DNA of 64,000 nt from Bacteroidota bacterium (GCA_027488835.1 JAIYAW010000002.1:124001-188000), one strand, 5' to 3'; numbered from the stretch's first letter, positions 39,549 through 43,378 are shown. Translations and numbers: made by a program. The notes: generated by a model not told the origin, from the letters alone.

Positions 39549-39995
39549 ATGAAAAAAATAATTTTAGTATTGGTAGTAATCGCAGTTTCTGTAGGTGCAA
39601 TTGGATATTATTTATGGAATAAACCATCTGAATTTGTAAGCGATGGGAAACCTGATTTTCAAATACCATTGATTGAATTGACAAATGATGGCAAAAACTT
39701 GAGCGATTCAATTTTTGGTACAAAATATGTAGGTAAAGCAATACAATTTGATGCAGAAGTTGAAAGTGTAGTTGATAACAAAGGTTCTAAAACGTTCACT
39801 TTGAAAACAAATGACGATGATATGGTTGTAAATGCGGGATTTCATGAAAGTATTTCCAATAAACTTACAAAAATTGTTGCAGGTGATAAAGTGAAATTGC
39901 AATGTGATTGCAGCGGTGTTACCAAACCTGAATCTGAAGATGACTTGCTTTCAGAAATTGAAATAAATTTAACACGTTGTAATTTAATTAAATAA
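39549..39995 (+). CDS. tRNA_anti-like OB-fold protein, membrane anchored
   Basis: The 148-residue protein has an N-terminal signal anchor (about 3-22, IILVLVVIAVSVGAIGYYLW). The OB-fold-like domain (about 50-148) carries the pattern YVGKAIQFDAEVESV, GDKVKLQCDCSG and EIEINLTRCNL, which I recognise as the tRNA_anti-like family found in Bacteroidota. It heads a six-gene operon with YceI, two c-type cytochromes and two DUF5777 barrels, with gaps of 5 bp or less or overlaps. Nucleic-acid binding is unlikely for an exported protein; the role is unknown. Confidence 0.75.
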   Translation: MKKIILVLVVIAVSVGAIGYYLWNKPSEFVSDGKPDFQIPLIELTNDGKNLSDSIFGTKYVGKAIQFDAEVESVVDNKGSKTFTLKTNDDDMVVNAGFHESISNKLTKIVAGDKVKLQCDCSGVTKPESEDDLLSEIEINLTRCNLIK

Positions 39996-40000
39996 ATATA

Positions 40001-40555
40001 ATGAAAAAAAATATCCTATTCTCGCTTTCTGTAATGTTGCTTGGCTTCGCCAACGCGCAAATTTACAGCACTTCAACTGGCACTGTTTCATTTGTAAGCA
40101 AAACTAAATTTGAAGAGTTTTCAGCCTACAATAAACAAACCCAAGCTGCAATTTCAGTTAATAAGGGAACAGTTCAATTCAAATTGCCAATCAATTCTTT
40201 TCAATTTGAAAAAGATTTAATGCAAACGCATTTCCAAGAGAATTACATGGAATCTGCAACTTTCCCAACCAGTATTTTCAAAGGGAAAATTAAAAATTTG
40301 TCGGAGGTTAAATTTACCACTGATGGAACCTACGAAGTTGAGGTGCCTGGTAGTTTAGAAATGCATGGAGTAACCAAAGAAATCGAGGTGAAAGGAAGTA
40401 TAGTTGTCAAAGGAAAGTCAATTACTCTGTTGGCTGATTTTTCAATTGAATGCGCTGATTATGGTATCAAAATACCTAAAAATAATGTAAGTCAGATTTC
40501 GAATACTATCAACATAAAAGTTGATTGCACACTTTCTCCAAAAAAGAAGAAATAA
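40001..40555 (+). CDS. YceI-family lipid-binding-like periplasmic protein
   Basis: The 184-residue protein has a signal peptide (first 20 residues ending ANAQ). The YceI beta-barrel lipocalin-like domain shows the conserved QFEKDLMQTHFQENYMESATFP-type stretch (N/M-x-H-F followed by YPxxxF), GTYEVEVPGSLEMHGVTKEIEV and FSIECADYGIKIP. YceI proteins bind polyisoprenoid or other amphiphiles in the periplasm. It starts five bases after the previous gene and the cytochrome gene starts two bases after its stop. Confidence 0.88.
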   Translation: MKKNILFSLSVMLLGFANAQIYSTSTGTVSFVSKTKFEEFSAYNKQTQAAISVNKGTVQFKLPINSFQFEKDLMQTHFQENYMESATFPTSIFKGKIKNLSEVKFTTDGTYEVEVPGSLEMHGVTKEIEVKGSIVVKGKSITLLADFSIECADYGIKIPKNNVSQISNTINIKVDCTLSPKKKK

Positions 40556-40557
40556 TC

Positions 40558-41214
40558 ATGCGAAAATTTAATGGTGTAATATTTTTTGCACTATTCGGCG
40601 CTTCTCTACTATTTTTTGGGGAATCTTGCAAACATGAGAATCTGCCTTCTGTAAATGCAGATAGTATTTGTTTTGAAAGAGATATTCTCCCAATATTTGT
40701 TTCAAACTGCGCAATGTCTGGTTGTCATGATGCCAATACAAAAGCCGAAGGTTACAATCTTTCAAATTATTCATCAATTATGAAAGACGGAATTAAACCG
40801 GGAAACCCCGCTGATTCTGAAATTTGGGAAGTAATTGATGATGGTTCAATGCCACCTAAAGGTAAATTGACATCGTTACAAAGATCTTATATCAAAACAT
40901 GGATAGCTGCGGGTGCGAAAAATGGAATCAACTGCTTTGTGGATTGTGATTCTAATGTTTTTAGTTACAGTGCAGGTGTTTCTAAAATAATGTCGCAATG
41001 TACCGGGTGTCACTCAGGTACAAATCCTTCTGGGAAAATTGATTTATCGAATGTTGCAGGTGTTAAATCTGTTGCACTTTCAGGAAAGTTAGTGGGCTCA
41101 GTTCAGCAATTGTCTGGATATGTTTCAATGCCACCTTATGGAAGCCCTAAATTAACAAATTGTCAAATTACTCAAATCCAAAAATGGATAAACAATGGCT
41201 GTCAAAACGATTAA
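40558..41214 (+). CDS. Exported di-haem-type c cytochrome with CX4CH and CX2CH sites
   Basis: The 218-residue protein has an N-terminal export signal ending near Cys24 (GES-C, a poor lipobox). Two potential haem c sites follow: CAMSGCH (51-57, spacing CX4CH) and CTGCH (148-152). MPPKG near 98 and MPPYG near 197 could give axial methionines. Each half repeats the same plan (haem site, then a GxI/LxxW...MPP stretch, then a IxxWIxxGxxN end), so it looks like a tandem duplication of one cytochrome module. The next cytochrome gene overlaps it by 20 bases. Electron transfer in the periplasm or at the outer membrane is inferred. Confidence 0.82.
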   Translation: MRKFNGVIFFALFGASLLFFGESCKHENLPSVNADSICFERDILPIFVSNCAMSGCHDANTKAEGYNLSNYSSIMKDGIKPGNPADSEIWEVIDDGSMPPKGKLTSLQRSYIKTWIAAGAKNGINCFVDCDSNVFSYSAGVSKIMSQCTGCHSGTNPSGKIDLSNVAGVKSVALSGKLVGSVQQLSGYVSMPPYGSPKLTNCQITQIQKWINNGCQND

Positions 41215-41560
41215 ATTAAGTTTCTTAGTATTGTTAATAGCGGCATCTATTGAAAGTTGCTATTACGATAAAAAAGAGGATCTTTACACTTCAACGTGCT
41301 CTACCGTGGGGATGACATACACCAAAGATATCGCAGATTTGGTAACAAACTCTTGCGCAGGTTGCCACAGTGGAACTAGCCCATCAGCGGGTATTGCGTT
41401 AAGTACTTATGCAGACGTAAAGGACTGTGTAGTGAACGGCAAATTTATTGGTTCAGTAAAGCAAGACGGTACCGCTTCTGCAATGCCAAAAGGCGGAAAA
41501 TGGAGCTCTTGTAATGTTTCAAAATTAGAAGCGTGGAAAGCAGCAGGTTGTCCTTTATAA
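41195..41560 (+). CDS. Small lipoprotein c-type cytochrome
   Basis: The 121-residue protein has a lipoprotein-like signal (ASIES-C22), one haem site CAGCH (54-58) and a candidate axial Met in SAMPKGG near residue 99. It ends in CNVSKLEAWKAAGCPL, the single-module version of the repeated plan in the neighbouring di-haem protein. It starts inside the 3' end of that gene and its stop TAA shares a base with the ATG of the DUF5777 gene (TAATG), so translation is tightly coupled. It may form a complex with its neighbours at the outer membrane. Confidence 0.8.
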   Translation: MAVKTIKLSFLVLLIAASIESCYYDKKEDLYTSTCSTVGMTYTKDIADLVTNSCAGCHSGTSPSAGIALSTYADVKDCVVNGKFIGSVKQDGTASAMPKGGKWSSCNVSKLEAWKAAGCPL

Positions 41561-42429
41561 TGAAAAATTTATTTTTAATAGGATTTGCTGTATTGTTCAT
41601 GCAAAATGCCAAAGCGCAAGACAGCATTAATACTGTAACACTGCTTGAACTAGGTGAATTTGCACCCGTATTAGATTTGAATGTAAAATCTAAAAGTTTG
41701 CGCATTATTAACGGACATTCCTCTGCTGTATTGCCTAATGGGTCATTCGAAATCAGCATAGCCCATAGATTTGGTCAAGTTTCCACTGGAATTGACAATT
41801 TGTGGGGAGTAGATAATATGAATAGTAATAGAATTGGTTTTGACTATGGCGCAACAAAAAGAATAACATTTGGAGCGGGAAGAAGTAGTTACTACAAAAC
41901 TTTTAATGGATATGTGAAATGTGCCCTGATTGGTGATTATGCTAGCAAGTTTAACTTGACCTACTTAGCCGATATGGCAATCGATGGCAGGGCAACCAGT
42001 GATTGGAATTTAAATCCATTCTATTTTACGCACCGATTCAATTATACGCATCAACTCATTGTATCTTATACCTTTCATCCATATTTACTGGTTGGATTTA
42101 CCCCAACTTTGGTCCATATGAACTTGGTTGACGGAATAAATATGAATAACGATATTCCAGTAATGGGAGGATATGTTCGGTTGGTACTTAACAAACATGC
42201 AAGTTTTACTCTTGAAGCAAATACAATAACTTCTTTTGGAATGGATTTGCCAATTAAATCAAATCCTACTGTAGGATTAGGTTTTGAATTTTTCACTCCT
42301 AAGCATGCATTCCATATTAGTTTAAGTAATTCGAGAATGTTGAATGAACCATATTACATGGTTACGGACCAAGTTCCTAATACGTTTGGTCAATTTTGTT
42401 TGGGATTTAATATTGTAAGAAGATGGTAA
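41560..42429 (+). CDS. DUF5777-type beta-barrel protein, first copy
   Basis: The 289-residue protein (start MKNLFLIGFAVLF, signal peptide to about residue 19, ending AKAQ) is almost entirely alternating beta-strand, with aromatic residues and a C-terminal FCLGFNIVRRW. Such a pattern suggests an outer-membrane barrel. The segment ISIAHRFGQVSTGIDNLWGVDNMNS-like (RFG and NxxG) followed by RIGFDYGATKRITFGAGRS is what I recall as DUF5777. It is followed by a second copy overlapping by seven bases. Beside two cytochromes it could form a porin-cytochrome-like unit; this is inference. An in-frame upstream extension is rejected because it lies inside the cytochrome gene. Confidence 0.78.
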   Translation: MKNLFLIGFAVLFMQNAKAQDSINTVTLLELGEFAPVLDLNVKSKSLRIINGHSSAVLPNGSFEISIAHRFGQVSTGIDNLWGVDNMNSNRIGFDYGATKRITFGAGRSSYYKTFNGYVKCALIGDYASKFNLTYLADMAIDGRATSDWNLNPFYFTHRFNYTHQLIVSYTFHPYLLVGFTPTLVHMNLVDGINMNNDIPVMGGYVRLVLNKHASFTLEANTITSFGMDLPIKSNPTVGLGFEFFTPKHAFHISLSNSRMLNEPYYMVTDQVPNTFGQFCLGFNIVRRW

Positions 42430-43304
42430 GGTTCAATTTAAAATGGATATTAGTGATCGCGCTGAGTTTCGTCTCTTTGAAACTTTCTGCACAAGATGAC
42501 GATTTATTGGGTGATGAACCTGCTATACCAACCGATAATAAAGTGAATTTTGCATTTAAAACCACCAAAGTAATTAACCTTCAAAGTTTGGAATTGTTAG
42601 GACCAGGAGTTTTTGATTTCAAAATGAACCACAGATTTGGAGCTTTAAACGAAGGACCAATAAACGCTTTCGGTTTAGACTTAGCAACCATTCGCTTTGG
42701 TGGAGAATACGGAATCAATAGAAATTTGATGGCTGGTTTTGGAAGAAGTAATGTTTCTGGAAATAAAAATGTGGATGGTTATTTGAAATATCGCGTTTTT
42801 CACCAAACATCAAATAATAAAAAACCATTTTCATTGCTTTTGTTTTATGGAATAGAAAATAAAATTGGGCCGACTTATTCCGATGTGAATGCTTCAAAAA
42901 GATTGACAAGTGTGGCTCAAGTTATTATTGGTAGAAAATTCAATGAAACTTTTAGCGCTCAATTTTCACCAAGCTATGTTTTGGGTTACAATAGTTCCAA
43001 TGCTGCATTCAATCAAGTTGCACTGGGTATGGGCATGAGAATGAAACTTACCATGAGAACTACCTTAAATGCCGAGTGGATACCAATTTTAACAAATAAA
43101 GGATTTGTTAGAAATAGCGCTTCTATAGGATTTGATATTGAAACTGGCGGACACGTTTTCCAAGTGCATTTTACAAATAGCAGTGGCTTAAACGAAGCTC
43201 AATTTATTAGTAACACCCAAGATACTTGGGATACTTACGGAATTCGATTTGGTTTTAACCTTTCAAGGGTATTCACAATTGTAAATCCCTCAAAATTCAA
43301 ATAA
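42423..43304 (+). CDS. DUF5777-type beta-barrel protein, second copy
   Basis: The 293-residue protein has a signal peptide (about residues 1-23, ending LSAQ), a short acidic stretch (DDDLLGDEPA) and then a beta-rich body. That body is clearly homologous to the preceding gene (compare MNHRFGALNEGPINAFGLD and RFGGEYGINRNLMAGFGRS). The end GIRFGFNLSRVFTI fits a barrel's last strand. The start overlaps the previous gene by seven bases. It closes the six-gene operon and is followed by a strong terminator. The function is unknown. Confidence 0.8.
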   Translation: MVRFNLKWILVIALSFVSLKLSAQDDDLLGDEPAIPTDNKVNFAFKTTKVINLQSLELLGPGVFDFKMNHRFGALNEGPINAFGLDLATIRFGGEYGINRNLMAGFGRSNVSGNKNVDGYLKYRVFHQTSNNKKPFSLLLFYGIENKIGPTYSDVNASKRLTSVAQVIIGRKFNETFSAQFSPSYVLGYNSSNAAFNQVALGMGMRMKLTMRTTLNAEWIPILTNKGFVRNSASIGFDIETGGHVFQVHFTNSSGLNEAQFISNTQDTWDTYGIRFGFNLSRVFTIVNPSKFK

Positions 43305-43337: not shown

Positions 43338-43378
43338 AAAAATGTCCTTGGATATATTCAAGGACATTTTCGTTTTTT
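43338..43378. terminator. Intrinsic terminator between convergent operons
   Basis: AATGTCCTTG and CAAGGACATT form a 10-bp stem around an 8-nt loop, followed by TTCGTTTTTT. It ends the cytochrome/DUF5777 operon and lies 10 bp before the stop of the convergent membrane glycosyltransferase gene. Confidence 0.9.

Follow-up and report, generated by a model that had tools for sequence, protein, structure and literature searches.

YceI proteins bind isoprenoid lipids, some of them ubiquinone-8 (PMC8981238, PMC9113575). Proteobacterial genes of the yceI type, which occur linked to or fused with genes for cytochrome b561, give protection from lipid peroxyl radicals (PMC9113575), and in Cbp2D a YceI domain of the ubiquinone-8 type is fused to two cytochromes c (PMC8981238). 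Here we analyzed a 64,000-nucleotide stretch of DNA from a Bacteroidota bacterium (GCA_027488835.1, JAIYAW010000002.1:124001-188000; hereafter the window), which carries at 39549-43304 an operon of six genes for an OB-fold protein, a YceI-family protein, two putative cytochrome c lipoproteins, and two predicted outer-membrane barrels of the DUF5777 family. Members of these families recur together in many Bacteroidota, and we put at about even the chance that the products of the operon form an outer-membrane redox relay recurrent across this phylum.

The operon resembles BcnA/LcoA, as well as E. coli yceI and the cytochrome gene next to it, in that a YceI protein is genetically tied to an envelope cytochrome, and quinone-based periplasmic redox chemistry has been proposed for BcnA/LcoA as it is for the operon here. 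However, the cytochrome of BcnA/LcoA is an inner-membrane b561, whereas the operon and its relatives encode c-type lipoproteins or a Rieske protein together with a predicted outer-membrane barrel and an OB-fold anchor. No cytochrome b561 (LcoA) partner was found in the window operon by Pfam search, and the YceI proteins of the two systems are distantly related. Cbp2D/Cbp2E, which serve the reduction of lytic polysaccharide monooxygenase, have a YceI-type quinone-binding domain (X158), in Cbp2D coupled to small cytochromes c, and deliver electrons outside the cell, as the operon may do; Cbp2D, however, is one fused, secreted Cellvibrio protein with a carbohydrate-binding module and no barrel, and no carbohydrate-binding domain was found in the operon. 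In MtrCAB and other porin-cytochrome conduits (PCC), exported cytochromes and an outer-membrane barrel are also encoded in one operon, but there a large barrel sheathes a multihaem wire, in contrast to the narrow 12-stranded barrel and the one- or two-haem His/Met lipoproteins predicted here. Each family of the operon is known, and the five-part combination appears undescribed in the literature searched: DUF5777 occurred in no paper of that search, outside which most subscription journals lie, and a literature search combining YceI and Bacteroidetes returned nothing on this gene cluster.

All six open reading frames (ORFs) of 39549-43304 were read on the plus strand of the window. The first (39549-39995) encodes a 148-amino-acid protein with an N-terminal hydrophobic anchor and a possible tRNA_anti-like (OB-fold) domain, and the second (40001-40555) a YceI-family protein of 184 amino acids with a signal peptide. 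The third (40558-41214) encodes a two-domain cytochrome c lipoprotein (di-haem protein) with the N-terminus C-K-H-E, in which CX4CH and CXXCH are each followed by Met-Pro, and the fourth (41195-41560) a one-haem cytochrome c lipoprotein (mono-haem protein) with the acidic N-terminus C-Y-Y-D-K-K-E-D. The last two are DUF5777 genes, a diverged copy 1 (41560-42429) and copy 2 (42423-43304). Counted from gene ends to ATG starts, the spacing is +5, +2, -20, -1, and -7 bp in gene order (the di-haem gene starts at ATG 40558, and an alternative TTG at 40525 is also readable), and minus-strand genes bound the operon on either side. The six tightly packed plus-strand genes of the original prediction are thus borne out by the ORF coordinates, with gaps of up to 5 bp or overlaps; the six-gene operon is real, and its arrangement is far from chance.

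To describe the surroundings of DUF5777 elsewhere, the genome contigs of named bacteria were scanned with a DUF5777 alignment, which gave 80 loci, taken with flanks of at most 10 kb, and the addition of four annotated plasmid loci brought the set to 84. Proteins of the loci and of the window were clustered without prior labels, and the cluster profiles were then used to label all loci, including 40 further regions from searched genomes, among them families of other classes in the phylum. This blind clustering returned YceI, mono-haem, OB, and di-haem proteins as the only frequent partners of DUF5777 (68, 64, 53, and 50 of the 84 loci, respectively); the next most frequent neighbours were the sensor (14 loci) and regulator (13 loci) of a two-component pair. 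In the scanned loci, each partner accounted for 7-9% of the genes within five genes of DUF5777 and for 0-2% of those farther away. Because the 80 scanned loci are those that matched the query best, they are biased to its relatives, and a phylum-wide sample of 247 genomes is the safer guide. DUF5777 was present in 98 of these genomes, and YceI plus a cytochrome or Rieske gene lay beside it in 20 of 28 loci. At least three module families were contiguous in 91 of 123 loci, with a median gap of 7 bp between adjacent module genes (239 of 344 gaps were 20 bp or shorter). The contiguous same-strand arrangements came in 41 distinct forms, 32 of which held at least three families, and a Rieske protein joined or replaced the cytochrome genes in loci of the Emticicia type and in some others.

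Pairwise distances within the partner families tracked those of DUF5777 (r 0.62-0.78, against shuffled maxima of 0.12-0.21), and common species history accounts for part of this correlation. Since membership is kept while order changes, shared function is favoured over synteny alone; passive synteny is further opposed by the many orders and by the occurrence of the module beyond the class. These results uphold the earlier proposal of a real, conserved, and apparently uncharacterised multi-protein envelope system: cytochromes c, YceI, and predicted barrels recur together, the module is kept beyond close relatives, and DUF5777 was modelled as a barrel.

The di-haem protein matched PSCyt1 (PF07635, E 6.7e-11) and Cytochrome_CBB3 (PF13442, E 1.1e-7), and the mono-haem protein matched CBB3 under the cut-off (E 0.0026). 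Two features had escaped the original prediction. In the di-haem protein, the haem motif that comes first reads CX4CH (CAMSGCH) rather than CXXCH, and the mono-haem protein is homologous to the second di-haem domain (38% identity, E 4.3e-13), because of which we conclude that the two cytochromes share ancestry; the mono-haem protein was the sole other di-haem homologue found in a search of the genome. CX4CH followed by CX2CH was present in 48 of 50 relatives of the di-haem protein, and among 70 mono-haem relatives CX2CH occurred in 53 and CX4CH in 15. Downstream of all 232 haem motifs examined, Met-Pro was found at 20-110 residues, at the site expected for the distal ligand. In the di-haem alignment the Cys, His, and Met columns were invariant or nearly so, and in the mono-haem alignment C, C-H, P, W, and G were invariant and M nearly invariant. 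Both families therefore combine a haem-attachment motif with a conserved distal ligand, as c-type cytochromes do at the sequence level, and both proteins are predicted to be His/Met cytochromes c with covalently attached haem. Haems with His/Met ligation mostly have positive potentials, which sets them apart from the bis-His haems in metal-reducing conduits. The genome carries cytochrome c assembly genes and a haem-copper oxidase. An AlphaFold2 model of the di-haem protein (predicted local distance difference test [pLDDT] 86) gave no Foldseek matches, for which an apo model of a small cytochrome built from 27 sequences is a poor test. Several further putative cytochrome genes, recognized only by a motif within long or reverse-strand ORFs (L044, L080, and L088), were set aside as probably due to chance.

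Both DUF5777 copies scored far above the PF19089 gathering cut-off of 23.1 bits (copy 1, 174 bits, E 4.1e-51; copy 2, 229 bits, E 5.8e-68), and the family is confined to these two sites in the 2.49 Mb genome. An AlphaFold2 model of copy 2, based on an alignment of 68 sequences from which the plasmid loci were left out, had 12 long strands (pLDDT 91.6; predicted template modelling score 0.84). Its closest folds were the 12-stranded channels KdgM, FapF, and NanC (VIA Z 17-18), KdgM superposing with Z 18.1 and a root mean square deviation of 2.0 over 169 residues, whereas no similarity in sequence between DUF5777 and solved structures was detectable. We know of no cytochrome partners of KdgM, NanC, or FapF. 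DUF5777 is thus predicted to be an outer-membrane β-barrel, and a barrel of 12 strands is too narrow for a cytochrome domain. Conserved charged residues (R71, R91, R108, D118, K122, K172, R206, D238, and E240) are predicted to face the lumen, the lumen side having been assigned from the alternation of hydrophobicity in the sequence. A FadL-like hydrophobic channel for quinones was considered and rejected on this predicted charge and on the scores of FadL relatives, which were below those of KdgM and NanC. The two copies in the window are only ca. 24% identical, and copy 1 has lost the otherwise conserved ETGGHVFQ motif, which suggests a division of labour specific to the lineage. A tandem pair was also found in other members of the same genus and family.

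The YceI protein of the window scored 61.7 bits against PF04264 (cut-off 23.7; E 1.4e-16), and the profile of its family matched solved YceI proteins, 1y0g and 5ixg among them. By homology, binding of an isoprenoid or quinone-like lipid is plausible. The tRNA_anti-like assignment of the OB protein is a suggestion from a match to PF12869 (20.9 bits, E 2.7e-4) that lies below the gathering score of 23.5.

Surface lipoproteins of Bacteroidetes carry an acidic export signal after the lipidated cysteine (PMC5080379). At least two acidic residues were present at positions +2 to +7 in 84% of the mono-haem family compared with 22% of the other lipoproteins of the same loci; the di-haem family showed no such enrichment. 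Five loci encode lipoproteins with di-haem-like N-termini (CKHE, CRHE, or CQH type), a long repeat-like middle, and a terminal cytochrome c-like domain (L046:5496-7079, L079:613-2160, L091:6845-8887, L094:5936-7969, and L102:1050-2603). Their architecture resembles a surface stalk that bears a haem domain; SprB repeats were confirmed by Pfam for the L094 stalk alone, and the haem motif of the L046 protein is CX5CH. In other loci, proteins with the tail of the type IX secretion system (T9SS) were found, namely a choice-of-anchor V protein with CX4CH (L043), a Temptin-like protein with CXXCH (L156), and a DOMON protein (L118). The stalks, T9SS tails, and acidic N-termini, together with the Rieske proteins, point to redox chemistry that would take place at or beyond the outer membrane. 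At L118:7712-8995, an ankyrin-repeat protein accompanies the T9SS-tailed DOMON protein downstream of DUF5777, cytochrome, and YceI genes.

The redox relay is favoured because YceI-cytochrome precedents exist in BcnA and Cbp2D. In the scheme that we infer for ligand, location, electron flow, and barrel role, YceI would carry a quinone-like lipid, or its electrons, in the periplasm, as its homology suggests; menaquinone is the usual quinone of Bacteroidota. The cytochrome lipoproteins, judged from their N-termini and domain architecture, would sit on the outer membrane, some of them facing outward, and would pass single electrons via high-potential His/Met haems. The barrel may be a partner rather than the sheath of a wire, acting either as a channel that admits a small charged substrate or as a site where the lipoproteins dock or cross, and this is the weakest step of the scheme. 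The likeliest use would be to reduce, in a quinol-linked reaction, an oxidant located at the outer membrane, such as lipid peroxyl radicals or an enzyme at the surface; electrons might instead run the opposite way, from a donor to the aerobic chain. Of the original idea of an electron-transfer or quinone-handling system, the quinone half is plausible on homology, and the conduit half found no support. If the relay exists, the phylum has a dedicated means of bringing electrons or reducing lipids to its outer membrane, and a concrete, testable role falls to one branch of the YceI proteins, which are widespread but poorly understood.

Several points weigh against the relay. DUF5777 stood with no contiguous partner in 15 of 123 loci, the acidic N-terminus of the mono-haem family matches no published export consensus exactly, and the OB protein is without an assigned role. 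The conserved charged residues of the lumen are unfit for the passage of quinones through the barrel. Isoprenoids are, moreover, not the only ligands of YceI relatives, some of which bind others, antibiotics among them (PMC9113575).

In a narrower form of the relay, for which we see a limited but appreciable chance, the operon would be an antioxidant module, the Bacteroidota counterpart of BcnA/LcoA: quinol bound to YceI would quench lipid peroxyl radicals of the outer membrane, and the cytochromes or Rieske proteins would re-reduce or discharge it. The linkage of yceI genes to cytochrome b561 in Proteobacteria, where mutants accumulate peroxidised lipids (PMC9113575), is consistent with this form. 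In the phylum sample, all 11 genomes without a match to haem-copper oxidase also lacked DUF5777, as would be expected of a module for oxygen-exposed cells, but this association is weak, as nearly all sampled genomes have an oxidase and the exceptions belong mostly to a single family; in a sample at class level, oxidase-less genomes were too few to judge it. Moreover, no b561, aldehyde reductase, or peroxidase was among the frequent neighbours in the 84 loci, and the partners with stalks or T9SS tails suggest that the function lies outside the membrane.

Another variant of the relay takes up these outward-facing partners, and we consider it unlikely in this specific form. YceI would shuttle quinol across the periplasm to His/Met lipoproteins docked at the DUF5777 barrel, and electrons would be presented at the surface without multihaem wires, with SprB-repeat stalks as the site or T9SS-secreted haem proteins as the recipients in some species.

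It is doubtful that the operon serves extracellular electron transfer of a kind unlike MtrCAB, in which single-haem proteins at the surface would take electrons from an external donor or pass them to an external acceptor (iron, for instance), with the electrons crossing in some way at the DUF5777 barrel. The outward-facing architectures and the presence of the barrel in the same operon agree with it, but a barrel of 12 strands cannot hold a cytochrome domain, and proteins with one or two haems each could scarcely bridge the membrane. The profile of the di-haem family, which also matched cytochrome c6, is distantly similar to the Fe(II) oxidase FoxE (E 4e-6), but this weak match covers one domain of a protein from another phylum with another operon context, and the operon gives no evidence for iron. 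Nutrient uptake is just as doubtful. There, DUF5777 would be a specific channel for a small charged solute, the cytochromes would alter the oxidation state of the solute (e.g., iron or copper) before or during uptake, and YceI would be unrelated to quinones. A predicted lumen lined with conserved charged residues and the acidic-sugar channels KdgM and NanC among the closest folds fit this explanation, but likeness among 12-stranded barrels is generic, and the frequent neighbours in the 84 loci included no TonB-dependent receptor, binding protein, or inner-membrane transporter. Finally, an ordinary MtrCAB/PCC-type conduit, the analogy drawn by the original prediction from exported cytochromes beside a barrel gene, was rejected on barrel size and haem number and has next to no likelihood, as the barrel belongs to DUF5777 and has 12 strands with KdgM/NanC-like proportions, a search of the genome for the MtrB/PioB barrel (PF11854) gave no match, and the operon encodes Met-ligated cytochromes of one or two haems and no multihaem cytochrome.

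Downstream of the last gene of the operon, an intrinsic-terminator-like hairpin of 14 pairs followed by a T run lies on the plus strand at 43339-43370. It is the sole terminator-like site in the region and is placed at the operon end; by number such hairpins are not in excess (1 found, 3.0 expected by shuffling). A family search gave no match to phage families. In six other loci (L049, L054, L080, L088, L110, and L112), a second YceI gene near the module is directly followed by genes for a propeller-type sensor histidine kinase (Reg_prop, Y_Y_Y, and His_kinase) and a LytTR response regulator, and this set is a possible dedicated regulator. At L132:5969-10649, the genes after a di-haem gene and DUF5777 encode 4Fe-4S ferredoxin-type and NrfD proteins and one more cytochrome c; the module there adjoins a quinone-interacting complex. 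On the Emticicia oligotrophica plasmid pEMTOL02 (L033:1-9988), the module has cytochrome c3-family, NAD(P)-binding, and CcsA genes as neighbours, and its presence on this plasmid indicates that the module can ride extrachromosomal DNA.

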